In this document: positions 2,285 to 37,085 of the stretch, in pieces | How positions within the stretch are numbered: the stretch's first letter is position 1 | Layout of the letters: every line of letters begins with the position of its first letter | Assembly (NCBI GenBank): GCA_902727895.1 | Contig: CACVAP010000035.1 | Coordinates: 1 to 38,451 of the forward strand | Length of the DNA: 38,451 nt | Reading direction: 5' to 3' | DNA from: an uncultured Sulfurovum sp. | GTDB taxonomy: Bacteria > Campylobacterota > Campylobacteria > Campylobacterales > Sulfurovaceae | Made by a program: the position numbers and the translations under genes | The notes under the pieces: generated by a model | The model's database searches: none | What the model saw: the letters and a program-made list of their open reading frames with translations, nothing else | What the model was told of the DNA's origin: nothing

Positions 2285-3289
2285 CTAAGAAGGTTTCTGT
2301 AAATTATTCCATTTTTCATAGCGTGTTTCATCATACAACGTATTTGTTTTGTATAAAGAATAGGTAATAGTCACAATCTTTCTCATCACAGCAATTTGAG
2401 CAGAGGTTGTATGCTTACCATTGGTTTTTAACCTATCAAAAAAATTCCTCATTTCAGCATTGTATTGAATAGAAATAAGTGTTCCCATAAAAAGTGTATT
2501 CCGAATAAGTTTAGAGCCTTGCTTAGATATACGTGATTTCTTATGTATGGATGAACCTGAACTTATTTCTATTGGGTCAAGACCAGCAAGTGCTGTTATT
2601 TCTTTTGCTGATGCATCTTTATATCTCATAAAAAACTCAAGTAAGACAATACCTGACAAATTACCAACACCCTTAAATGAAGTAATAGACTCTAACTGTT
2701 TTTTGTATTTTGGCACAAGTGCAATGAGTCCAAGCATTTTTTCTACTATCTCTTTTTCTTCTTTTTTTAAAGCTTTTATTTTAGAACGTAATTTACGTAC
2801 TATAAATACTTCATCTTCTCTAGCCAGTGAAGCTTCTAGTTGATTTGTTTTTACCACACGTTCACGTACAAGTGACTTATAGTAACGTATATGGTTCTGT
2901 AGCTGTATTTGAGCTACATCATGAGTTGGGATAGATATATTTTCTTTGTTGGCTATTGTATGCATACGATAAAGCATTCTTGCATCTACAATATCTGTTT
3001 TGTTTCTGTTTTTAGTAGTCTTCGCAAAGGCTGCACTTTGTGAAGGTTTTACTATAAAACAAGAAATATTGTTGTCATGACAATATTTTTTAATTGTTGT
3101 CCAATAACTACCTGTTGGCTCATAAATCCAAACCAAACTACTAGTTGTGTTTCCATATAATTTTTTGAGTTTAGCAGTGAGCTTTTTTAACCCTTGTTTT
3201 GTATTATCTATTTCTAAATCGATATTGCCTTTAGGTATATATACTTGAAGACTTGATTTAGAGATATCTATTCCGATATAATCATTCAT
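2285..3289 (-). CDS. IS110-family transposase (bridge-RNA-type recombinase)
   Basis: The 334-residue protein begins MNDYIGIDISKSSLQVYIP, the RuvC-like DEDD domain start of IS110 transposases with the first acidic residue in GIDISK. Further acidic positions follow in the WIYEPTGSYW and KTDIVDARML segments. The C-terminal Transposase_20 domain includes SFKGVGNLSGIVLL and the segment ALAGLDPIEISSG, which leads to the catalytic serine region. The length is normal for the family. A strong AGGAGG at 3293-3299 fixes the start. In characterised relatives (IS621) the enzyme uses an RNA from the element's own non-coding end to pair with target and donor DNA. The gene looks intact, so the element may still be active. 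Confidence 0.92.
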   Translation of the reverse strand: MNDYIGIDISKSSLQVYIPKGNIDLEIDNTKQGLKKLTAKLKKLYGNTTSSLVWIYEPTGSYWTTIKKYCHDNNISCFIVKPSQSAAFAKTTKNRNKTDIVDARMLYRMHTIANKENISIPTHDVAQIQLQNHIRYYKSLVRERVVKTNQLEASLAREDEVFIVRKLRSKIKALKKEEKEIVEKMLGLIALVPKYKKQLESITSFKGVGNLSGIVLLEFFMRYKDASAKEITALAGLDPIEISSGSSIHKKSRISKQGSKLIRNTLFMGTLISIQYNAEMRNFFDRLKTNGKHTTSAQIAVMRKIVTITYSLYKTNTLYDETRYEKWNNLQKPS

Positions 3290-11217: not shown

Positions 11218-12153
11218 ATGCAGTTGATATTTATAGTTATTTTCGGAGCTTTACTGGGCTTTCTTTATGGAGCAAACAGTGATGGTTTTATTTTTTCTTC
11301 AAAGATTTGTCTTTTTGCTGGTTTAACTTTGATTATGCCTTCCCTTTTTAAATTTGAACTCAGTCATGTACAACTTGTGTGGGAACATAAAGCTGTATTA
11401 CTCAAAGGGCTTTTGGTAAACTATATTCTTCTACCTCTCATTGCCATTGGTATTGGTTTTGCAACAGGTGACTTTGGGATTACGGCTGGACTCTTTTTAG
11501 TGGCTGCTCTTTCTGGTGGAGGTATGGTAATGCACTGGATTAAAAAGTCAAAGGGTGATACATCTTTTGGTTTCTTGCTCCTTTTTATTAACTTGTTACT
11601 CATCTCTCTTTCTTTATTGATGTTACATGTTTTTGCAAGCTATGCAGCTGGTTATTTTGATGCTTCTTACGACCAAGAAGTAGGTATTTCACGGTTTGCT
11701 ACAGCTGTTGTTGTACTTTTAATTGTAGTACCATTTATTGCTTCTAGGATAGTTCGTCTTATCAAACCATTGGTAAGTGCTATTCAAACATATCAAAAAT
11801 ACATTTCGCATATTAGTATTTTTATTATTTTATTTTATCTTTTTGGTTTACAAAGTTCTCAAACTTTAGTCGATCTTTATGACTTTGAACCAGAACTATT
11901 TCTCATAGCATTTGGGGCAGTGGTTGTTTTTTATGCCTTAACTTTTTTGCTAGCTAAACTTATTTACAATTTAGAAAATCCTCAAGAACGTGCTGCTTTC
12001 TGGCATAGTATTACCCGTTACTTAACCTTAGCATTGGTTATTGCTACGTTCTCAGCAAGCTCTTTTGGCGTTTCAATGCTTTTACCAATTATGTTTGCAT
12101 ACATAGTACAAATTCCTCTTTCCGTGTACATCGCACAGAAACAGTTTAATTAA
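11218..12153 (+). CDS. SBF/ACR3-like membrane transporter
   Basis: The gene encodes 311 residues and about nine or ten hydrophobic helices, with the pattern of the bile acid:sodium symporter/arsenite ACR3 superfamily: LKGLLVNYILLPLIAIGIG followed by GLFLVAALSGGGMVMHWIKKSKGD, the discontinuous helix region that lines the substrate site. The substrate cannot be told; arsenite, an organic anion or something else is possible. ATG 11218 is preferred because TTAGGGA lies just upstream; the in-frame ATG at 11203 lacks a site. A TATAAT at about 11166 suggests its own promoter. No arsenic-resistance partner genes are adjacent, which argues against a simple ars operon. Confidence 0.65.
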   Translation: MQLIFIVIFGALLGFLYGANSDGFIFSSKICLFAGLTLIMPSLFKFELSHVQLVWEHKAVLLKGLLVNYILLPLIAIGIGFATGDFGITAGLFLVAALSGGGMVMHWIKKSKGDTSFGFLLLFINLLLISLSLLMLHVFASYAAGYFDASYDQEVGISRFATAVVVLLIVVPFIASRIVRLIKPLVSAIQTYQKYISHISIFIILFYLFGLQSSQTLVDLYDFEPELFLIAFGAVVVFYALTFLLAKLIYNLENPQERAAFWHSITRYLTLALVIATFSASSFGVSMLLPIMFAYIVQIPLSVYIAQKQFN

Positions 12154-12337
12154 CTTTTAAATTTTTTGGAAGTTTGTATGAAAGAAAGATATGAGTTAAG
12201 GGTTATACAAAGGGAGGGATGGGAGTCTTAGCTCATAGATAAAACAAGTAAAGGAGTTAAACAAGGTTTATCATCTTTCATAATAGTATTATAACCCATG
12301 GAGATAAACACATAGTCAATCAATAGTTAACTATTTG

Positions 12338-13399
12338 TTAATGACGAGGGGCTTTGACAATGTAGCGTGAATGTACCCAACCAGTTGTCTCTCTATAGTT
12401 GATTTGACACCATTTGATGCCTTCATCATTATGTTTACATTTTATGAGACGAATATGATTGGCACTGGGTAGTAGTTCATCAATGACTTTGTATCCTTGT
12501 CCAGCACCTTTTCTTACATTAAGTGTTTCATGGGAAGGAAGATTGGTAACTTGGTAATATGGGGCTGTGTTAACTTTTTTTGTTTTTTCTGTGCTTACAA
12601 AGCTGTAGACACCATAAAGTGCAAAGACGCTGAGAACTCCTAGGAAAAAATATTTGAGTTTAAAAAGTTTTTTTCTAAGAGACGTTAAAAGATCACTATT
12701 TTCTTTTTTTAATTCATTTATATGAAATATGGCTCTGTTTTTAGGGTTTCTTCTTGTTTGAACAGAAGAGCTTACTTCTTTTTTAAAAGTGGAGAACTTA
12801 AGATAAAATTCCTCATGCTTTTGCATTAAGTCCTCATCATTATTGAGTTGTTCTAAGAGCTTTTTAATACAAGAGATACCTATGGCATAGGCTAAGTTCG
12901 TGCCTTCTTTATTACTAAGCATGGCAATAACATTAGCAGTTTTATTACAAATGATGGGTGCACCACTGTTTCCTCTTGAAAATTTATAGTCTTCATCAGC
13001 TTTAATTTTTTTTATAAGATAAAAAGTATCATCTTCTGTGGAGTGAAGTTCAATAAAGTCTTTAAAAAGAGTAGCATGGATGGTACTCTTTTGCACAAGG
13101 TCTTTTTTAAAATTTGAAAAAGCAATAGTAGTAATGTTTAAGTCATGACAGGGAGCAAGTTGTAAAGTCATCTTTTTATGTTCTACAGAAGGAAGAAAAA
13201 TAATTGCCATATCTAAAAAACTATTTTGAACAACAATCTCTACAGGTTGGGCTTCAATAGTTGCATCTTGGACAGTGCCTAGTACATGTTGGCAAGTTAA
13301 AATATAAGTACCTTCTTGATTACTCTCAATTACAAAACCCGTTCCAAAGCTTTTGTTATCTTTATTGGAACTTTCAATATGCACAATATTCTTTGACAT
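12338..13399 (-). CDS. Membrane-anchored trypsin-like serine protease with bacterial SH3 domain
   Basis: The protein has 353 residues. Residues 1-185 form a trypsin-like protease domain with the triad His38 (TCQHVLG), Asp63 (SFLDMAII) and Ser145 (SRGNSGAPI). A charged linker with basic residues (RKKLFKLKY, 242-250) precedes a single transmembrane helix (about 250-268). Residues about 280-348 are an SH3b domain (ETLNVRKGAGQGYKV...TGWVHSRYI). There is no signal peptide, and the positive-inside rule puts the protease in the cytoplasm and the SH3 domain in the periplasm, where such domains usually bind cell wall. That arrangement suggests an envelope sensor coupled to internal proteolysis (inference). 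AAGGAG precedes the ATG. It is divergent from a lipoprotein-caspase-clostripain gene run. Confidence 0.85.
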   Translation of the reverse strand: MSKNIVHIESSNKDNKSFGTGFVIESNQEGTYILTCQHVLGTVQDATIEAQPVEIVVQNSFLDMAIIFLPSVEHKKMTLQLAPCHDLNITTIAFSNFKKDLVQKSTIHATLFKDFIELHSTEDDTFYLIKKIKADEDYKFSRGNSGAPIICNKTANVIAMLSNKEGTNLAYAIGISCIKKLLEQLNNDEDLMQKHEEFYLKFSTFKKEVSSSVQTRRNPKNRAIFHINELKKENSDLLTSLRKKLFKLKYFFLGVLSVFALYGVYSFVSTEKTKKVNTAPYYQVTNLPSHETLNVRKGAGQGYKVIDELLPSANHIRLIKCKHNDEGIKWCQINYRETTGWVHSRYIVKAPRH

Positions 13400-13776
13400 G
13401 TTGACTCCTTCTTTTATCTATTATTACATTTTAGTAAAACAATTTTAGTTAATTTACTGAAAAAATATGGGATAAATAAGTGGATTAAAAATAAAGAGGA
13501 AAGAACATAACTAGATATTAATAGTCATATGTTTTATTGTTGAAAATATAATAAAACAAATAAAAACTTTAAGTAAAATATTTAATTTTAACTACTATAA
13601 GAATTTACTTATGGTTAAAGTTTATAAGTACTAAAATATATAAAGACGTCTTAACAAACTGTAAGGAGCAAGAACGGTAAAAAAGTTCATAGCGTTAGAG
13701 AATGCTTTAATGATAAAAGTTGCTGTTGAGTCCAAAATCATAAAATAGGAAGTAGTATACTTGAAAGGATTGCGAA
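13400..13776. other. Divergent intergenic region of the protease locus
   Basis: This AT-rich stretch must hold the promoters of the leftward protease and the rightward lipoprotein gene. GAAAGGA at 13763-13769 is the lipoprotein ribosome site. On the minus strand a short frame, open from about 13740 to 13631, encodes a hydrophobic 36-residue tail ending YSLLRRLYIF. It has no ribosome site, so I do not call it a gene. No RNA gene or repeat was recognised. Confidence 0.5.
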
Positions 13777-14916
13777 ATGAATATGAAAAAACTAATGAAA
13801 CAAAGTATTTTGTTTTTGTTTGGAGGTTTATCTTTAGGGTGTGTTGGAAGTAACTCGGTACATCCAACGAATCTTGAAGGCTTGTTTCAGCAGAGGATTT
13901 TTTTTAGTGAGAAACCATTTGTTCAGACAGATGTTGAAGCAACTATTGCTTACCCTACGAATCAAGATAGTGATACAAGCAGAGAGAAAGGTATGGGTTT
14001 AGCAAGTTTAGGAAGTGCAATTGTTGGCAGCATTGCGCCTCAGTTGATTGAGAGAGGAGTTGACATGTTCGCTAACTCTATCGTTGCTTTATCTGGTAAA
14101 GATGATCAGAGTACTCAGATGTATGCAGAAGCATCGAACTTTTTTTATAAAAATGAAATGTTTAATATGCCAAATAAGACTCGACCTCAATTAAATATAC
14201 TTTTTGTTAGTGCTGTGTTTGGTGATTCTAAAGATAGATGGATACCAACTGGTTTAGATCATGATGAAAGAAATGTATTTAAAGCATTAAATATAGTTGG
14301 GAAACCTAACTTTTACATGGAGGCAAAACTTTTTCCAATTCCTGGGAATAAATATATGGAAATAGTTCCTACCTACATATTTTATAATCGATTGTTGAAT
14401 TCAAAGGGTATGGATACAAGAAGAGATTTAGCAATAAACTTTAGTTTTTTTGATTTAGAGAATCAATCGGACAGTAATTTAATTAGTCAGGAAAGTATTG
14501 TTTTTAAAGACATTCTGGTTGGGAAAGAATATGGCTCAAAAGAACTCGCTAAGGTACGGACAAAGTTTATGCAAATGCCTAGTATTTCAAGCGAAAAGCA
14601 AGGCTATAGTGGAGCGTATAATCTAAAAGTAAGTGTCACAGAAACACGTGATATCAATGAGTGGTTAGCTGCTTTAGGTGAAGAGATTTCGAATTCTAAA
14701 AACACAATATCTTCTAAACTCTATGTTACTAAAGAAGAGAAAATTAGATATGAAGAAAATCTTCAAAAGGCAAAATTAGAGTTAAAGTCTGTTCAAGCTC
14801 AAATTATACAAGCAAAAGAAAATGATACGAGTGAGCTTGAAATGCTTGAGTTGGAAACTAAATTAGTAAGTGCTGAAGCGAAAGTTAAGCGTAAACAATT
14901 GGGTTTGACTGATTGA
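13777..14916 (+). CDS. Lipoprotein of unknown function in the protease locus
   Basis: The 379-residue protein has a lipoprotein signal: basic start MNMKKLMKQ, hydrophobic stretch, lipobox LSLGC with Cys22. A helical segment with repeated small residues (GSAIVGSIAPQLIERGVDMF, about 78-97) is followed by a mixed beta domain (about 130-295) and a C-terminal coiled coil (about 315-379, rich in Glu, Lys and Ala). The family is not recognised. The middle part resembles the protein at 16919: both have AP-x-(L/I)-I-(E/D)-(R/K)-G followed by a beta-rich region with a conserved order of strands. The two genes flank two cysteine peptidases, so they may be substrates, scaffolds or sensors for them. It starts an operon with the caspase-like gene 28 bp downstream. 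Confidence 0.7.
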   Translation: MNMKKLMKQSILFLFGGLSLGCVGSNSVHPTNLEGLFQQRIFFSEKPFVQTDVEATIAYPTNQDSDTSREKGMGLASLGSAIVGSIAPQLIERGVDMFANSIVALSGKDDQSTQMYAEASNFFYKNEMFNMPNKTRPQLNILFVSAVFGDSKDRWIPTGLDHDERNVFKALNIVGKPNFYMEAKLFPIPGNKYMEIVPTYIFYNRLLNSKGMDTRRDLAINFSFFDLENQSDSNLISQESIVFKDILVGKEYGSKELAKVRTKFMQMPSISSEKQGYSGAYNLKVSVTETRDINEWLAALGEEISNSKNTISSKLYVTKEEKIRYEENLQKAKLELKSVQAQIIQAKENDTSELEMLELETKLVSAEAKVKRKQLGLTD

Positions 14917-14944
14917 AGTAAATAAAATTGAGAAAGGAAAAGTC

Positions 14945-15778
14945 ATGAAGAAAGGTATATCACTACATATTGGATTAAATGAGGTTGATGTTGGGTACTA
15001 CAAAAATCGATACTTCTTAAGTGCGTGTAAACAAGATACATTAGATATGGAGGAGATTGCTAGCTCTCAAAATTTTGAATTAAGTACTGTACTCCTTGAT
15101 GAAGAAGCAACTAGCGAAGCGATTATTAATGCCATTAAAGAAGCCAGTACACAGTTGATTGATGGGGATATTTTGTTTATTAGTTATTCAGGTCATGGAG
15201 CATATGTACCTGATAATAATAATGACGATAGTGATAAACAAGATGAAGTATGGTGTGTTTATGATAGGTTTCTTTTTGATGATGAATTACATTATTTATG
15301 GACACTCTTTGAAGAGGGTGTTCGCATTTTTATTGTTTCAGATAGTTGTCATAGTGGAACCATTACCAAAGAGATGAGATTTGGCAAAGAACCTATAGTG
15401 ACTAAGTCACTTGATGATTATGTTGCTAAAAATATTTATTTAAACGATGAACAGTTTTATATTAATAAGAAAAAAGAGCTACCTCCTGTTAAAGACGAAG
15501 ATTTAAAAGCCACAGTTAAATTGATTTCTGGATGTAAGGACAGTGAAAAGTCATTGATTTTAGGAGGAGATGAAAATAGTCTTTTAACCAAAGTGCTAAA
15601 AGAGGTATGGGATGCAGGTTATTTTGTAGGTACAACGCAAGAGTTTTTTGAGCAGATACAAGAAAAAGTAGTTGAAGAAGCCAAGAAGGAAGATAAAAAG
15701 CAAACGCCTCAACTCTATACAATTGGTAAGAAAAATGAAGCTTTTGAGACTCAAAAGCCATTTTCTGTTTTTGAATAA
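14945..15778 (+). CDS. Caspase-like cysteine peptidase (family C14, metacaspase type)
   Basis: The 277-residue protein has the caspase p20 fold signature. The catalytic dyad is His84 in FISYSGHGA and Cys135 in VSDSCHSGT, and it opens with the typical strand GISLHIGLNEVD. An Asp/Asn-rich loop directly after the histidine (PDNNNDDSDKQDE, 89-101) could bind calcium, as in some metacaspases. There is no signal peptide, so it should act in the cytoplasm. Such enzymes cleave after basic residues and in bacteria take part in cell death, phage defence or protein turnover. It sits between the lipoprotein gene and a clostripain-like gene, likely co-transcribed. AAAGGA gives a good ribosome site. Confidence 0.88.
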   Translation: MKKGISLHIGLNEVDVGYYKNRYFLSACKQDTLDMEEIASSQNFELSTVLLDEEATSEAIINAIKEASTQLIDGDILFISYSGHGAYVPDNNNDDSDKQDEVWCVYDRFLFDDELHYLWTLFEEGVRIFIVSDSCHSGTITKEMRFGKEPIVTKSLDDYVAKNIYLNDEQFYINKKKELPPVKDEDLKATVKLISGCKDSEKSLILGGDENSLLTKVLKEVWDAGYFVGTTQEFFEQIQEKVVEEAKKEDKKQTPQLYTIGKKNEAFETQKPFSVFE

Positions 15779-15809
15779 ATATTTCATAGAATAGAGGGGA
15801 CTATAACTC

Positions 15810-16928
15810 ATGAAAGTAAAACTAACCCTACTAATTTACATGGCAGCAGACAACAACTTAGACAGTGCAGCATTAAACGACCTAGAATCGATTCGTAAAG
15901 GTTCTATGTTTAGTGAGATGGACATAGTGCTTCAACTTGATCGATGGGAATTTGTGGACGCTAAGGAGACGATTCGTTACCATGTCAAAGAGGGTGAAGT
16001 TAAAGAGATAAAACGGATGGGGGAGAGTAATACAGGTGACCTCCGAATATTAAAAGAGTTCATTGAAGAGTCAGCTAAGGCTTATCCTTCTGAAAAGCTT
16101 ATTGTGATTATTTGGTCACATGGATCTGGAGTGGATGATTATAATGGTTATGAAGGAAAACGGGAACGTTATTTTGTAGAGCCAACGCCAGAGATAGAAG
16201 AGATAGCCATTGCTTTTGATGACTCTGCTAAAGATTTCTTAGACAACATAGAGCTACAAAAAGCACTTGATGTGGATGTTAATATTGATGTACTTGGCTT
16301 TGATGCTTGTCTTATGGGGATGTTTGAGATTGTTTATCAACTGCGTAATGAAGCCGATGTTATTGTGGGGTCACAGTATTTAGAACCTGCTTCTGGATGG
16401 GACTATCCACGTGTTTTAGAAGACTTGTCATTGGATGGAACGTCAAATAAAATGGGTGAAGAGCTGGTAAAGTTTTATGCTGATTACTATAAAAGAGAGT
16501 CTTATGATGTAACGCAGTCGGCATTTGATGTGGATAAGGTTGAGGAAGTTACTAAAAATTTGGATGCATTCGCTAAATCATTGTTAGAGAATTTAGAAAA
16601 AAAGAAAGATTTGAAGTACACCCTTTTAAGTTCTCAGTTGTTTAATAAAAATGACTACATTGATCTTATAGATTTTGTTAAAAATCTGAAAGAACGTTTT
16701 GATGATGAATCGCTTTTATGTTTATCAGACAGGTTATTAGGTTCCTTAGATGACTTAATTATTGCCAATCATAATATGGGAGATGCTATGCGAGATGCTA
16801 ATGGGGTTTCTATTTATTTTCCAACACAACGGAATCCATTTAAAGAGACTTTTGAGATGTATGAAAAGTTGGACTTCTCTAAAGACTATCCAAATTGGAT
16901 AGCTTTGATTCGTTGGTATTACGCTTGA
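15810..16928 (+). CDS. Clostripain-like cysteine peptidase (family C11)
   Basis: The 372-residue protein begins with the family signature LLIYMAADNNLD (7-18). The catalytic dyad is His104 (IIWSHGSG) and Cys167 (GFDACLMG), followed by the usual EIVYQLRNEADVIVGSQ segment and a C-terminal DANGVSIYFPT strand. C11 peptidases share the caspase fold and cut after Arg or Lys. Unlike most secreted clostripains it has no signal peptide, so a cytoplasmic role is likely. It is 31 bp after the caspase-like gene with GAGGGG upstream, so the two related-fold peptidases are probably made together. Its end overlaps the convergent gene at 16919 by 10 bp. Confidence 0.88.
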   Translation: MKVKLTLLIYMAADNNLDSAALNDLESIRKGSMFSEMDIVLQLDRWEFVDAKETIRYHVKEGEVKEIKRMGESNTGDLRILKEFIEESAKAYPSEKLIVIIWSHGSGVDDYNGYEGKRERYFVEPTPEIEEIAIAFDDSAKDFLDNIELQKALDVDVNIDVLGFDACLMGMFEIVYQLRNEADVIVGSQYLEPASGWDYPRVLEDLSLDGTSNKMGEELVKFYADYYKRESYDVTQSAFDVDKVEEVTKNLDAFAKSLLENLEKKKDLKYTLLSSQLFNKNDYIDLIDFVKNLKERFDDESLLCLSDRLLGSLDDLIIANHNMGDAMRDANGVSIYFPTQRNPFKETFEMYEKLDFSKDYPNWIALIRWYYA

Positions 16929-17785
16929 TTTTTTAGATTTTCAACTTCTGTATTAAGTTTCTCTTTAATGTGTTTTTCATTTTCTATGTAGACAGTTTGA
17001 AGTAGTTTTGCAAAAGAGTTTCCTTCACGAATTTCTAGTATTTTTATAACGAGTGTATAGGGTTGCACATCATCAAAAGGAGCATTAATCCAATTAGATT
17101 GAAAAGAAGTGTCATAGCCACGCTTTGATTTAAAAGTATATTGATGGTTTGGGGCTAAAGTTTCAAAGTGTAAAAAGGTAGAAAAGTTTTGTTGAGAAGT
17201 GACAATGCTCTCTCCTGCGCGAAGAAAAGAGAAGGCTAAAACAATTTCATCAATCTTGTCTCCTTGAGGACTCTCTCCAGCGTAAAAGTAAGAAGCTGGT
17301 TGAAAATAGAAGGCTTTTTTGTTTTCTGATTGAATGATGTCCAGTTCAATATGTAACTCTTTTTGATTACCTATAAGTAGGGCTTGGTTATGTGTTTGTT
17401 TTTCACCATCACCAAAAATTTCTCCTTGCATATTTTTGTTTGGAGCAAAGTCTCCACGGACAAGTGTTATTTTGCTAGGTAGCGATAATGTTTTTGGATT
17501 GATAATGTCAAAATTACGTTTGACAGTCGTAGGAAATGCTTTGTCATTGGCAAAAGACTCAATGGTGTCAGCTACAAGTTCTAGCCCTTTATCAATAATT
17601 TTAGGGGCTGCTGTTAAGAGCATTTCAATGGCTACGCCTTGTACTCCCATAGCTGCTGAAATTAATGATGTGTCAATTGATTTTGTTTGAGAGCTTTGTG
17701 TTGTTTTAGTCTCTGAATCTTCAGGTAAATAGTTTACAAACATTTTTGTAGGATAGACTGTTTTCTTGTTAGCGAACCAATTCAT
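16919..17785 (-). CDS. Unknown protein, cytoplasmic paralogue of the lipoprotein at 13777
   Basis: The 288-residue protein has no signal peptide or transmembrane segment. A helical part (about 40-80, with LTAAPKIIDKGLELVADTI) is followed by a beta-rich domain (about 90-260) and a short charged C-terminal helix. The alignment with the 13777 lipoprotein is seen by eye: APKIIDKGLELVAD against APQLIERGVDMFAN, then KAFYFQPASYFYAG against KYMEIVPTYIFYN, and DDVQPYTLVIKILEIREGNS against SGAYNLKVSVTETRDINE. The pair brackets the two cysteine peptidases. The function is unknown; substrate or partner of the proteases is a reasonable inference. Confidence 0.6.
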   Translation of the reverse strand: MNWFANKKTVYPTKMFVNYLPEDSETKTTQSSQTKSIDTSLISAAMGVQGVAIEMLLTAAPKIIDKGLELVADTIESFANDKAFPTTVKRNFDIINPKTLSLPSKITLVRGDFAPNKNMQGEIFGDGEKQTHNQALLIGNQKELHIELDIIQSENKKAFYFQPASYFYAGESPQGDKIDEIVLAFSFLRAGESIVTSQQNFSTFLHFETLAPNHQYTFKSKRGYDTSFQSNWINAPFDDVQPYTLVIKILEIREGNSFAKLLQTVYIENEKHIKEKLNTEVENLKNQA

Positions 17786-17873
17786 AACTTCTCCTTGTTT
17801 ATCTAAAGTTATATATTTTATTATAACTTAGATAGACTTTGTGCTTAAGTAGTTGGCTTTCTCTATGATGAGT

Positions 17874-18491
17874 CTAAAAATTCATTTGCATCTTATCTAC
17901 ATCATCCCAAGACATAGACTTGTTCTGCCCTCTATTTTTTAAAATATGGTCAATATAACGTGCAAATAAATCTGTTTCAACATTTACTTCTGTACCCACT
18001 TTATAGTTACACATTAGGGTTTCTTTTAAAGTGTATGAGATAATTGTAAGTCTAAAGCTATCATTATAAACATCGTTAACAGTCAAAGAAATACCATCAA
18101 TCGTAATAGAACCTTTGGGAACAATATAGTTAATGTATTTTGGTTCAACAGCGATGATGAAGTCTGTGGCATTTTCACGTTTGGTCATGTGCGTTACTTT
18201 TCCAATACAGTCTACATGCCCTTGAACAATATGTCCTTCGAAACGGTCACTTAGTTGCATGGCAGGTTCTATATGTACCCGTCCTGAGATTTTTGAGTCA
18301 TCTATAATAGAGCGTGTTTCATCTGCTAGTTCTAGGTCAAAACCATCTGAGTTTACCTTTACAACAGTAAGACAGATACCATTGATAGCAATGCTGTCTC
18401 CCATCCCAGCTTTGTATTTTGCTTGGATACTTAGAATGTTATTAGTGTAGTTTTTGACAGTGGCGATTTCTCTTATTAGACCTGTGAACAT
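17874..18491 (-). CDS. ribE: Riboflavin synthase alpha chain
   Basis: The 205-residue enzyme joins two molecules of 6,7-dimethyl-8-ribityllumazine to make riboflavin. It has the invariant MFTGLI start and two tandem lumazine-binding barrels, each with a GxSIAINGICLTV- or KGSITIDGISLTV-type segment (about 32-44 and 124-136). The length is normal. GAGGT lies just upstream of the ATG. It runs in the same direction as the 16919 gene but is metabolically unrelated. Confidence 0.96.
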   Translation of the reverse strand: MFTGLIREIATVKNYTNNILSIQAKYKAGMGDSIAINGICLTVVKVNSDGFDLELADETRSIIDDSKISGRVHIEPAMQLSDRFEGHIVQGHVDCIGKVTHMTKRENATDFIIAVEPKYINYIVPKGSITIDGISLTVNDVYNDSFRLTIISYTLKETLMCNYKVGTEVNVETDLFARYIDHILKNRGQNKSMSWDDVDKMQMNF

Positions 18492-32552: not shown

Positions 32553-33902
32553 ATGAAATTTTACAATAGAGAAAAAGAACTTCAAAATTTGCAAGAGATT
32601 GAAGAGGGATCAAAAGAAAGCTCAAAAATGACCATCGTCGTTGGAAGACGAAGAATTGGGAAAACGACGCTTATCAAAAAAGCGTATACTAATCAAGTCT
32701 ATCTTTTTGTTTCTAAGAAAAATGAAGCTTTATTATGTGAAGAATTTATTGTTATTATTCAAGACACACTGAAAGTAAAGGTTTTCGGTCAAATTAAGAC
32801 TTTTAAGGAACTATTTGAATATTTGATGGAGCTTTCTAAAACCAAACATTTTACCCTCGTAATTGATGAATTCCAAGAGTTTTTACAGATTAACAATACC
32901 ATCTATTCTGATATGCAAAACATTTGGGACAGTTACAAAGACAATAGCAAGATGAATCTAGTATTAAGTGGGTCTATCTATTCACTTATGAAAAAGATAT
33001 TTGAAGATAAAAAAGAACCTCTTTTTGGTCGAGCAAATAATAAAATCCATCTAAAACCCTTTTCTGTTCAGACGATTAAAGAGATAGTTGAAGAGAATCA
33101 TGCTTCTTATAACGCTGATGATTTACTTTCGTTTTACATGCTTACAGGTGGTGTGGCAAAATATGTAGAGATATTTGTAGACAGTAAAGCCTTTACCTTA
33201 GAAAAACAGTTAGCATTGATTTTTAAAGATTATTCTCTTTTTTTAGAAGAAGGAAAAAACTTATTAATCGAAGAGTTTGGAAAAGAGTATACTACCTATT
33301 TTTCAATTCTTTCACTCATTGCTTCTTCAAAAACTTCTCGTTCTGAATTAGAATCTATTTTAAATAAAAATATTGGTGGATATCTTGATAGACTAGAGAA
33401 TGAATACACCATTATTAAAAAAGTAAAACCTATTTTCGCAAAAGAAGGAAGTAGAACAGTTAAATATGAAATTATTGATAACTTTTTTAACTTTTGGTTT
33501 CGATTTGTCTATAAGTACCGAAGTGCGGTAGAGATAGAAAACTATGAGTATGTTAAAAATATTGTGCTTCGAGACTATGCCACCTATAGTGGTCGCTTTC
33601 TTGAAAAATATTTTATTGAACAGTTAAAACTTTCTTATGAATACAGTAACATCGGTAGTTATTGGGAGCGAGGAAATCAAAATGAAATAGACATCGTGGC
33701 TGTAAATGATGAGAAAAAAACGATGCTATTTGTTGAGGTTAAGCGAAATGTTAAGAAGATAGATTTGAAAGTTCTTGAGGGTAAGGCTTCTAAGTTGATG
33801 GCTAAGTATAGGAAATATGCTTTTGAGTTTGAGGGGTTTTCTTTGGAGGATGTAAAGAATGATGAAAGTTTTAAAGAGATGAAAAAGGATATGCATGGAT
33901 AA
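32553..33902 (+). CDS. ATPase_2/DUF234-type ATPase, paralogue of the 4987 gene
   Basis: The 449-residue protein is clearly homologous along its whole length to the one at 4987. Walker A is GRRRIGKTT (31-39) and Walker B VIDEFQEF. The winged-helix segment is KTSRSELESILNKNIGGYLD and the C-terminal nuclease-like pattern NEIDIVAVND...LFVEVKRN (about 380-405). Identity looks high in the ATPase core and lower in the winged helix surface, in line with their different upstream palindromes. It is the first gene of a run with 8-bp and 4-bp overlaps to a nuclease and an FtsH-like protease. The function is unknown. AAAGG is the ribosome site. Confidence 0.75.
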   Translation: MKFYNREKELQNLQEIEEGSKESSKMTIVVGRRRIGKTTLIKKAYTNQVYLFVSKKNEALLCEEFIVIIQDTLKVKVFGQIKTFKELFEYLMELSKTKHFTLVIDEFQEFLQINNTIYSDMQNIWDSYKDNSKMNLVLSGSIYSLMKKIFEDKKEPLFGRANNKIHLKPFSVQTIKEIVEENHASYNADDLLSFYMLTGGVAKYVEIFVDSKAFTLEKQLALIFKDYSLFLEEGKNLLIEEFGKEYTTYFSILSLIASSKTSRSELESILNKNIGGYLDRLENEYTIIKKVKPIFAKEGSRTVKYEIIDNFFNFWFRFVYKYRSAVEIENYEYVKNIVLRDYATYSGRFLEKYFIEQLKLSYEYSNIGSYWERGNQNEIDIVAVNDEKKTMLFVEVKRNVKKIDLKVLEGKASKLMAKYRKYAFEFEGFSLEDVKNDESFKEMKKDMHG

Positions 33903-35115
33903 AGAATATATAGAACTTTTCAAATTAATAGAAGAGGTTTCAAGTAAGCAAGAAGCACAAAAGATGAGAGGTTTAAATGATTATAATATGGTTAATGTTG
34001 TTCGGAAAGCTTCACATGAAGTAGGTATGCATTCAAATGTTATATATTCATTAATTAATCCTAATGGTTTACATTATCAAAATGATTTATTTTTAAATTT
34101 GTTTATTGAAGAAGTCTTGAATATAAGACTTAATGATTTTGGAAGAATTCTTGAAGTTAATGTTGAAGAGCAAACCAATAAAAATAGGCGAATTGATTTT
34201 ACAATAAAAAGTGAGAATTATTTTATTGGAATAGAAATGAAAGTTAATGCAGGAGATTTAAGAAATCAAATTTCTCATTATGATGAATATTTACTAGAAG
34301 AAGCAGATACTCAAAAAGTGTTGATGTATTATTTAACCAAAGATGGTAAAGATGCACCATTAAGAAGTAAAGGTAGTGTTTTTATTGAGAAGATCTCTTT
34401 TCAAGAGCATATACTAAATTGGTTAGATATATGTCAAAATGAAGTTAAAAATATTACCAATTTAAATGTTGCTTTAGAGGATTATAAAAATATTGTTAAA
34501 AAAATTACCGATAAATATAGGGGGAATGTTGTGAGTATTGAAGAAGAATTGATAAAGTCCAAAAAATATTTAAAAACAGTTTTATTAATAGATTCAAAGA
34601 TTGAGACTATTAAGGGTAGAACTCTTTACAGTTTTTTTGAGGAACTTTCAGAAGTTTTAAAGAATGAGAGTCTTAAATATAGTATTGATAAAATTAAAGA
34701 TATTACTACTGATCTAAATGATGAAGGACGGAAAGTAAGTTTGAATAAGTGTATAAATCTTTATAAAAAAGCAAGAAATAAACCTAAGTTTTTTGGAAAA
34801 ATTTTTGACTGTAGTTTTAATAATAATTTATATTTTAGTGTTGAATTACATGTTGGTTATTTATATTATGGTCTTATTAAGTTAGATGATTTTAATCTTA
34901 TTGCTCTAACTGATGATGATAGAAAACTATTTAAGGGTATTAGTTCAGTTAAAGATACAAGGTATGTAAAAAAAGTTACTAATACTTTACTTAATGATAA
35001 TATTTTATTTTTTGAGAAGTCAGACTTACAAGATGAAATAATGAAATTCATTCATCAAATTAAAGAAAGTCAAAATAGAATGTTACATTCACCCAAGGAG
35101 AAATTAACTATATGA
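33895..35115 (+). CDS. PD-(D/E)XK nuclease-family protein (PDDEXK_4-like)
   Basis: The 406-residue protein has an N-terminal helical segment with HSNVIYSLINPNGLHYQNDLFL (46-67), as in PDDEXK_4 proteins. The nuclease core follows: RRIDFTI (Asp101), then IGIEMKVNAGDLRNQISHYDEYL (Glu114, Lys116, and the D-x-x-x-Q-x-x-x-Y helix). The C-terminal half (about 200-406) is of unknown fold. Proteins of this group are found in phages, islands and defence regions. The gene is markedly AT-rich compared with moaA and overlaps the ATPase gene by 8 bp, so translation is probably coupled. AAAAAGG precedes the ATG. The DNA target is unknown. Confidence 0.75.
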   Translation: MDKEYIELFKLIEEVSSKQEAQKMRGLNDYNMVNVVRKASHEVGMHSNVIYSLINPNGLHYQNDLFLNLFIEEVLNIRLNDFGRILEVNVEEQTNKNRRIDFTIKSENYFIGIEMKVNAGDLRNQISHYDEYLLEEADTQKVLMYYLTKDGKDAPLRSKGSVFIEKISFQEHILNWLDICQNEVKNITNLNVALEDYKNIVKKITDKYRGNVVSIEEELIKSKKYLKTVLLIDSKIETIKGRTLYSFFEELSEVLKNESLKYSIDKIKDITTDLNDEGRKVSLNKCINLYKKARNKPKFFGKIFDCSFNNNLYFSVELHVGYLYYGLIKLDDFNLIALTDDDRKLFKGISSVKDTRYVKKVTNTLLNDNILFFEKSDLQDEIMKFIHQIKESQNRMLHSPKEKLTI

Positions 35116-37085
35116 GCGACTGGCTAAAAAAACTAATAGAGAAAATAAAAAACTCAGAACTTTATAAAAAAATAGAAAAGAAATTGCAAGAGTCAGCTCC
35201 TGCTACGCAAAATATTCCTACGAAACAAAAAGTGATGATGGGAATTATGTTCCTACTTATTATCGACATGAGTATTTTTATTTTTTCTTCTTTGGTAAAC
35301 ATTAATAAAGAAGAGACAGAGCTACAAAAAATTTCTAAGAACTTAGAAGAAGTGAAATATTTTGAGTCCAATAACTCTGCTTTAGGGGATTTGTTAGCTT
35401 CTGACAAAGTCTACTTTATAGTAGATGAAGAACTTAAAGTAGATGTTATTTTTCAAGAGGGAAATCTAAGTAAAGAGATTAAAAATTTACCTATTTACAG
35501 CATTACCCGTAGCATTGAAAAAGAGTTGATAAAAGCGAATATTAACTATCAGTGGATTGAAAAAGAAAGTGTAGCATCTGGTTTTGTGATTTTGACCTTT
35601 ATTTCTGACCATGCTTTGGATTTGATTTTTATTGGGCTTATTTTGTTTTTGTTAAAAAGTTCTGGAATGATGATGCTTGGTGGTGGAGATAAATTTAAAG
35701 TTTATAAACCCAAAGAGATTAAAGGCTCTATGGATGACATCATTGGTTATGAGGACATTAAAGAAGAGATTCAACATCTTGTAGACATGCTTAAAAATAT
35801 TGCTCTTTATTCTAAATATGGGATTGAAGATATTTTTAACATTATGTTCTCTGGAGTGCAAGGAACAGGAAAAACAACCATGGCTGTACAGATTGCTAAG
35901 AAGTTGGAAGTCCCTATTCTGGTGACAACAGGGAATATTGAGACTGGTTTTGTTGGGGGTGGTGCGAATATCGTTAAGAAAATCTATGCAAGAGCCAATG
36001 AACTCGCATCTGAAAACAAATTTCAGACTTGTATAGTTTTCATTGATGAAGCACAAAATTTACTTGTAAAACGGGGACAGTCTCGTGAGAAATGGGCAGA
36101 TGATACGCCTAATGAGTTGCTAACACACCTAGAGGGTGTTAAGACCATTAATGATGTGCGTATTATTACTATTGTGGCTTCCAACTTTGATGAGTCTAAT
36201 ATGCAGTTAGATGAAGCGATGGCTGCACGGTTTAAAAAGAAGATTCACTTTAGATTACCAAATGAAGAAGAACGTGAAGCATTGCTAAAACATTTTATGA
36301 AACCTGTTGAGAATAAAGAAGAGAGCATAGAAATTAAGAAATTGGCTAAAGCCTTTTCTGGAACAAGTCCTCGAACACTTCAGACCATTGTTCAAGAAGC
36401 TTCATTGTTAGCGATTGTTAAGCAAGAAAAAGTAAACCATGCGCACCTTATGAAAGCGTTTGAAGTGGTGATGATCGGTCAGTCAAACCGTAAGACGACA
36501 AAGAACAAAGAGAAAGAGCGACATATTATCTCGATTCATGAGATAGGGCATTTCTTGATGAACTTCAAGCAGACTTTGGTAGAAAATGACAATGACATGG
36601 AGAAGACAGAAGAGCAGATGAAAGTCATCAAAATTTCTTCAGAAAATATTTCTCGTGTTAATGCTTTGGGGTATGTTTTATCTGAGTCGGATGATATGTT
36701 GTTGCATAGTATCTTTGAACTTGAAAAAGAAGTGCGTATACTTTACGGTGGTGTGGCAGCTGAAGAGTTGATTTCTGGTAAGCAGAATATCACAACGGGT
36801 TCAGCCAATGATATTGAGAAGATTACCCATATATTAAAGCATTTGTTCATAGAGACTTCTGCTTATTCTAACTCAAAACTAAAACTTGATGGGATTGAGA
36901 TGCTTCAAAAAGAGGCATACTTAAAAATGGAAGCAAAAGCTGCTGAACTTTATACTGAGAGTTTGGAATTATTAAAAGATGAACAAGCACTTATTGAACA
37001 TTTAGCAGGTTTACTCATTGAACGTTGGGTACTGTCTAAAGAAGAAATATTTGAAGAGATTAGAAAATATAAGGAGCAAAATTAA
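35112..37085 (+). CDS. Divergent FtsH-like AAA+ membrane metalloprotease
   Basis: The 657-residue protein has a transmembrane helix at about 42-62, an extracytoplasmic segment (about 63-155), and a second transmembrane region (about 157-183). The AAA+ domain has GVQGTGKTT (248-256), pore loop TGFVGGG (278-284) and Walker B IVFIDEA (308-314); second-region ASNFD and AARFKKKI follow. The M41 peptidase domain has HEIGH (476-480), GGVAAEELISG (546-556) and a third metal ligand Asp567. All catalytic residues are kept, but GPPGTGKT, HEAGH and the FtsH C-terminus are altered. It is therefore a specialised paralogue rather than the housekeeping FtsH. It overlaps the nuclease gene by ATGA, so co-translation is likely. 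It may degrade membrane proteins or components of the same module. Confidence 0.85.
   Translation: MSDWLKKLIEKIKNSELYKKIEKKLQESAPATQNIPTKQKVMMGIMFLLIIDMSIFIFSSLVNINKEETELQKISKNLEEVKYFESNNSALGDLLASDKVYFIVDEELKVDVIFQEGNLSKEIKNLPIYSITRSIEKELIKANINYQWIEKESVASGFVILTFISDHALDLIFIGLILFLLKSSGMMMLGGGDKFKVYKPKEIKGSMDDIIGYEDIKEEIQHLVDMLKNIALYSKYGIEDIFNIMFSGVQGTGKTTMAVQIAKKLEVPILVTTGNIETGFVGGGANIVKKIYARANELASENKFQTCIVFIDEAQNLLVKRGQSREKWADDTPNELLTHLEGVKTINDVRIITIVASNFDESNMQLDEAMAARFKKKIHFRLPNEEEREALLKHFMKPVENKEESIEIKKLAKAFSGTSPRTLQTIVQEASLLAIVKQEKVNHAHLMKAFEVVMIGQSNRKTTKNKEKERHIISIHEIGHFLMNFKQTLVENDNDMEKTEEQMKVIKISSENISRVNALGYVLSESDDMLLHSIFELEKEVRILYGGVAAEELISGKQNITTGSANDIEKITHILKHLFIETSAYSNSKLKLDGIEMLQKEAYLKMEAKAAELYTESLELLKDEQALIEHLAGLLIERWVLSKEEIFEEIRKYKEQN

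Follow-up and report, generated by a model that had tools for sequence, protein, structure and literature searches.

The DNA analysed here (the window) is a stretch of 38,451 nt, contig CACVAP010000035.1 of the assembly of an uncultured Sulfurovum sp. (GCA_902727895.1). It carries, flanked by an SBF-family transporter gene on one side and ribE on the other, a block of five genes, encoding three peptidases of different families and two members of one new protein family, and this block is an insertion at a variable site of Sulfurovum. An earlier note, made from the letters alone, had proposed the five open reading frames, and all of them were confirmed at the positions listed below.

12338..13399, minus strand: TRY, a trypsin-fold peptidase with one transmembrane (TM) helix and a C-terminal bacterial SH3 domain (Pfam Trypsin_2 and SH3_3)
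13400..13776, no strand: AT-rich intergenic region of 377 bp between TRY and LIPO, presumed promoter region (from coordinates)
13777..14916, plus strand: LIPO, a lipoprotein and distant CONV paralogue with a long C-terminal coiled coil (signal, lipobox, hhalign)
14945..15778, plus strand: CASP, a stand-alone metacaspase-like C14 peptidase (Pfam Peptidase_C14)
15810..16928, plus strand: C11, a clostripain-family peptidase, predicted zymogen (Pfam Peptidase_C11)
16919..17785, minus strand: CONV, a Sulfurovum-specific beta-sandwich protein with no signal peptide (13-sequence family, predicted model)
12154..17873, no strand: the space that holds the inserted block, from the SBF transporter gene to ribE (comparison with genomes G154 and G173)
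17874-18491, minus strand: ribE, flanking gene

LIPO, CASP and C11 are co-directional, with gaps of only 28 bp (LIPO-CASP) and 31 bp (CASP-C11), which suggests an operon. TRY is divergent from LIPO, and CONV is convergent with C11, with which it overlaps by 10 bp. The promoter role of the region between TRY and LIPO is presumed, since a promoter scan gave no excess there relative to shuffled sequences; a terminator scan was likewise uninformative. Both flanks of the block are housekeeping genes, the SBF gene ending at 12153. In G154, from the same genus, SBF and ribE are adjacent with 180 bp between them, and the left part of this spacer can be traced by eye in the window as far as the stop codon of TRY. 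The same gap is filled in another Sulfurovum relative, G173, by a different protease cassette composed of CASP, C11, an fn3/VWA protein, CONV, a lipoprotein, a different membrane trypsin and a second lipoprotein, with CASP, C11 and CONV in the same relative orientation as in the window. The SBF side of a third genome, G171, harbours the closest relative of TRY with its SH3 domain (65%), accompanied by Trypco1, an alpha/beta-hydrolase, muramidase pieces, CASP, a second trypsin and a papain. Neither a tRNA nor an Rfam element was found at the ends of the insertion, nor were there long repeats on its flanks.

The three peptidases were assigned by Pfam, with E-values of 1.3e-7 (Trypsin_2) and 1.4e-9 (SH3_3) for TRY, 3.2e-15 for CASP and 3e-57 for C11. 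Their catalytic residues, proposed in the earlier note, were corroborated by direct reading: His38/Asp63/Ser145 in TRY, His84/Cys135 in CASP and His104/Cys167 in C11. These residues were kept in every homologue compared, from Sulfurovum and other Campylobacterota, wherever the residue was covered, including the CASP dyad in all of them. The sole apparent change, in a distant C11 fusion (L068), is one alignment column off, beside a WNHGGG motif. As the catalytic residues are kept across other genomes, we argue that the enzymes are active. None of the three has an export signal, as the note had said. Moreover, the single TM segment of TRY (residues ~250-270) is preceded by a K/R-rich stretch and followed by the SH3 domain, in support of the proposed layout with the protease inside and the SH3 domain outside.

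Across the TRY family, the N-terminal protease and the TM helix are constant and the outer part is exchanged: SH3 in two members, MORN repeats in one and unrecognised sequence in others. Judged from these sequences, a fixed protease and helix with a swapped outer part would be expected of a family of sensors or receptors, and the SH3 domain of TRY likely contacts the cell wall. By simple spacing, without a structure, the S1 position of TRY six residues before the catalytic Ser is occupied by Lys139 and not by an Asp of the Asp189 type; therefore, TRY should not be presumed to cut after Arg/Lys. The complete trypsin-SH3 protein was found in two genomes, and no match to TRY on plasmids. The trypsin gene of G152 (L023:2218-3430) is split into two overlapping frames, by frameshift or assembly error, with an intact caspase and a papain nearby.

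CASP matches the Geobacter caspase-like protein GSU0716 (3bij) over its full length (7.8e-48), with the motifs SGHG and DSCHSG, and is a bare domain of 277 aa in which Pfam recognises no Ig fold. Its SDSC motif places an Asp two residues before the Cys, presumably consistent with a basic P1 as in metacaspases. C11 shows the features of peptidase family C11, namely the His/Cys dyad, an S1 Asp165 two residues before the Cys and a basic Arg118 between His and Cys. Asp165 corresponds to Asp177, which is the S1 residue in PmC11, and Arg118 aligns with the activation site of clostripain (Arg190; Lys147 in PmC11) and is invariant in 8 C11 orthologues. Hence, C11 is predicted to be a zymogen cut after Arg118, and both CASP and C11 are predicted to cut after Arg/Lys.

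LIPO and CONV matched no Pfam family above the cut-off. The N-terminus of LIPO is a lipoprotein-type signal (SILFLFGGLSLGC) with a lipobox and CONV has no such signal, which agrees with the note's placing of the former outside the cytoplasm and the latter inside. Their distant paralogy, also claimed there, was borne out by profile comparison. BLASTP aligned the two over 35 residues only, and hhalign of a 13-sequence CONV profile with LIPO scored 49.6 (E 2.7e-6, 225 colinear columns), compared with 26.5 for the best of 200 LIPO shuffles, 26.2 for the best unrelated window protein and 25.6 for the best of ~290 other ORFs. The predicted models, that of LIPO being weak, share one order of elements: an N-terminal strand, a helix, a beta-rich core and a C-terminal helix. 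Because the profile score exceeds the controls and the models agree in element order, we take LIPO and CONV to be genuine paralogues. With the CONV model (predicted local distance difference test score, pLDDT, 73), Foldseek found no match in the PDB at E <= 0.001, and a search of BFVD yielded nothing significant. Candidate folds from VIA-align were discarded, as the best Z (6.9 over 67 residues) and that of SPOP MATH domains (~5) both fall in the range of common arrangements. In all 13 of 13 CONV homologues, a low-confidence linker with 2-7 Lys/Arg precedes a hydrophobic helix, and the linker may be a cleavage site.

Distribution was examined in 175 genomes of the family, 397 of the phylum (few genus members among them) and 34 of the genus. 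The earlier note had read the five genes as one system, and a fixed five-part set failed the co-occurrence check: the exact set is unique to this genome and not conserved. Only 1 of the 175 family genomes and 1 of the 397 phylum genomes (this one in both cases) has LIPO, which was also missing from plasmids and viral contigs; the trypsin-SH3 protein is in the two genomes mentioned, and CONV is often without proteases. CONV was detected in about 14 of the 34 genus genomes and not in the plasmids, viral contigs or phylum sample beyond the genus. C11 of this type occurred in 10 of the 34, and a search of the 397 phylum genomes at E 1e-30 added no others; plasmids yielded one weak C11 match and phages one weak caspase. 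Caspases of the GSU0716 type were found on plasmids of Rhizobium, Sinorhizobium, Deinococcus and Synechocystis, the Sinorhizobium copy adjoining a C1 peptidase gene, and no clostripain was annotated near them.

In any case, parts of the block recur together. One other genome (G173) has CASP, C11 and CONV together at this very site, and CONV adjoins proteases in G000, G173, G152 and G150. Nine of ten CASP loci with readable flanks have another peptidase gene (C11, trypsin, or a papain/alpha-beta-hydrolase protein) within ~3 kb, and in 7 of 10 genomes C11 has a trypsin no more than a few kb away, against a chance expectation of roughly 0.4% per pair. CONV is present in 9 of 10 genomes with C11 versus 5 of 24 others (Fisher 3e-4, counted by genome and not corrected for phylogeny). 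Five further CONV homologues (L063, L064, L069, L070, L072) lie within ~3 kb of ribE with no protease, three of them adjoined by a lipoprotein gene, and this site near ribE may be the ancestral place of the CONV family.

In loci of relatives that carry the same proteases (sister loci), these stand with Trypco1 (8.2e-12), a trypsin-nSTAND1-TPR protein (nSTAND1 2.2e-78), DUF900 alpha/beta-hydrolases (8.2e-42), papains, WD40 proteins, many lipoproteins, and wall hydrolases with no signal peptide. One of the latter (L068:731-3412) consists of a clostripain-family domain fused to an M15 D,D-carboxypeptidase domain and three peptidoglycan-binding repeats (Pfam) and adjoins Trypco1; we know of no description of such a fusion. 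Another clostripain-family domain is encoded at L084:5519-8218. A muramidase with a peptidoglycan-binding domain and no signal peptide adjoins a caspase at L026:2675-3856 and L025:3357-4279 (the latter interrupted by N's), and is a possible suicide-lysis effector of these loci. Finally, a sister-cassette trypsin matches trypsins of Hachiman, Lamassu and RT-protease defence systems. The kinship with caspase-type conflict systems suggested by the earlier note thus gained support from Trypco1, nSTAND1 and the pairing of caspase with alpha/beta-hydrolase in sister loci.

For counter-invader systems, Kaur et al. 2020 (PMC7159879) give as rules the pairing of trypsin with Trypco and of caspase with alpha/beta-hydrolase; they also proposed proteolytic cascades and noted domains that bind peptidoglycan, bacterial SH3 among them, on the far side of TM segments. 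With those NTP-dependent systems (VMAP/iSTAND ternary, NucA-trypsin system 3 and EACC1-caspase system 4) the window block shares trypsin and caspase signalling modules, TM-anchored trypsins, peptidoglycan-binding domains past the TM segment and, in the sister loci, Trypco1, alpha/beta-hydrolase, papain and lysozyme-like partners. In contrast, Pfam found no MoxR-vWA, VMAP/iSTAND, EAD, EACC1 or NucA in the five genes, and the block adds CONV/LIPO and a clostripain-family peptidase, the word clostripain being absent from PMC7159879. Neither Trypco next to a trypsin nor an alpha/beta-hydrolase next to a caspase is present in the window block, and Trypco1 is absent from this genome, although both arrangements occur in sister loci. 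The block carries a trypsin and a caspase with intact active sites, as members of that network do, and falls outside its definition because no core module is present; it looks like an offshoot of the network because the sister loci carry its partners. The note's statement that no described system has this composition accordingly stands for the exact set in the literature searched, and does not stand for the kind of system (PMC7159879).

Other comparisons were less close. As in the Canu caspase-nuclease and gated-nuclease/trypsin defences (PMC12799240), an active caspase or trypsin is encoded beside its presumed target, and a sister-locus trypsin resembles those of Hachiman and Lamassu; unlike them, the block has no nuclease and CASP no Pfam-recognised Ig fold. 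Bacterial gasdermin operons (PMC9612521) likewise set caspase-like or other proteases beside a small non-enzymatic protein, but CONV and LIPO have no recognised gasdermin match and LIPO is exported. CASP and C11 are clear members of the GSU0716/3bij and PmC11/clostripain enzyme families, which were solved as single enzymes and for which this partner set was not described in the literature searched. When the block was run through PADLOC, CASP matched 'caspase' (1.7e-10), TRY matched weakly, and C11, LIPO and CONV gave none. In the type III-B CRISPR proteolytic cascade of Steens et al. 2024, one protease reportedly activates another; the block has no CRISPR or SAVED component, and the likeness is one of idea.

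We favour, with moderate confidence, the reading that the block is a modular variant, particular to this lineage, of the peptidase-based systems with which prokaryotes conduct conflict (defence or programmed death), and that it is lodged at a variable Sulfurovum site. This reading is favoured because of the variable insertion site, the recurrent peptidase linkage and the conflict-system partners in sister loci, and also because of the defence-trypsin matches, the sensor-like TRY family, the activation-site residues of C11 and the co-occurrence of CONV with C11. As close relatives carry other mixes of the same parts, the block is probably one version of a changeable kit for self-defence or self-destruction. 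TRY would span the inner membrane, its protease facing the cytosol and its SH3 domain placed at the cell wall. If the envelope were disturbed, by phage entry or lysis or by an attacking rival, the protease activity of TRY would be released, and this would set off proteolysis in the cytosol by CASP and C11. C11 would stay inactive until cut at Arg118, either by its own activity or by that of CASP. The likeliest substrate or effector would be the cytosolic CONV, given its disordered, Lys/Arg-bearing linker before a hydrophobic helix, and LIPO, its exported paralogue, might serve as an outside partner or regulator, although for both proteins the roles of substrate, effector and regulator may be considered. 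The proposed order would be trigger-TRY-CASP-C11-CONV, with cell death as a conceivable outcome. The strongest version, a new Sulfurovum defence or death system in which a wall-anchored trypsin relays envelope damage to a metacaspase and then a clostripain zymogen, acting on a new effector family (CONV) controlled by exported LIPO, appears doubtful to us.

Several observations weigh against the favoured reading. The block has no STAND or MoxR-vWA module, EAD, Trypco, nuclease or recognised effector by Pfam and PADLOC, and no known defence gene directly adjoins it. In more than half of its contexts CONV stands without proteases, beside ribE, porin-like or other genes, and as several genomes have it alone, it does not have to be part of any protease relay. 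A row of adjacent proteases might also be used for housekeeping turnover. Along this line, TRY could be an HtrA-like stress protease in envelope protein quality control, with CASP and C11 as co-transcribed cytosolic clean-up and no function in death or immunity. HtrA is indeed a weak PDB match to the TRY protease domain (1.4e-4), and lipoproteins are numerous in sister loci; but HtrA proteases are periplasmic and TRY lacks an export signal, and patchy presence, a variable insertion site and swapped partners are unlike housekeeping, which makes this explanation unlikely.

We regard as rather improbable a gasdermin-like arrangement, in which the proteases would cut CONV at its disordered linker and so release a helix that acts on membranes and makes the cell permeable. 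The Lys/Arg residues and hydrophobic helix common to the 13 homologues fit such a role, but CONV occurs without proteases and neither Pfam nor Foldseek gave a gasdermin match for its model, a weak argument in itself. Similarly improbable is a chance neighbourhood, an insertion hotspot gathering unrelated accessory genes that do not work together. The uniqueness of the exact set, the different contents at the same site in G173 and the other cassette on the SBF side in G171 would be expected of it; against it stand the operon-like spacing of LIPO, CASP and C11, the return of CASP, C11 and CONV in G173 in the same relative orientation, and peptidase linkages far above the chance expectation.

Elsewhere in the window, an IS110-type transposase (2285-3289) lies ~9 kb from the block, and the region 32553-37085, with an AAA/DUF234 ATPase, a PDDEXK_4 nuclease, an AAA+M41-like protein and a G+C trough of 24%, is possibly a second acquired island.

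If the favoured reading is correct, caspase-type conflict systems would reach Campylobacterota, here with clostripain-family zymogens and wall-anchored trypsins, and would extend beyond the bacteria from which they have been described, most of them multicellular. Moreover, envelope-triggered intracellular proteolysis would be testable with a five-gene construct, and there would be a CONV/LIPO family to place.
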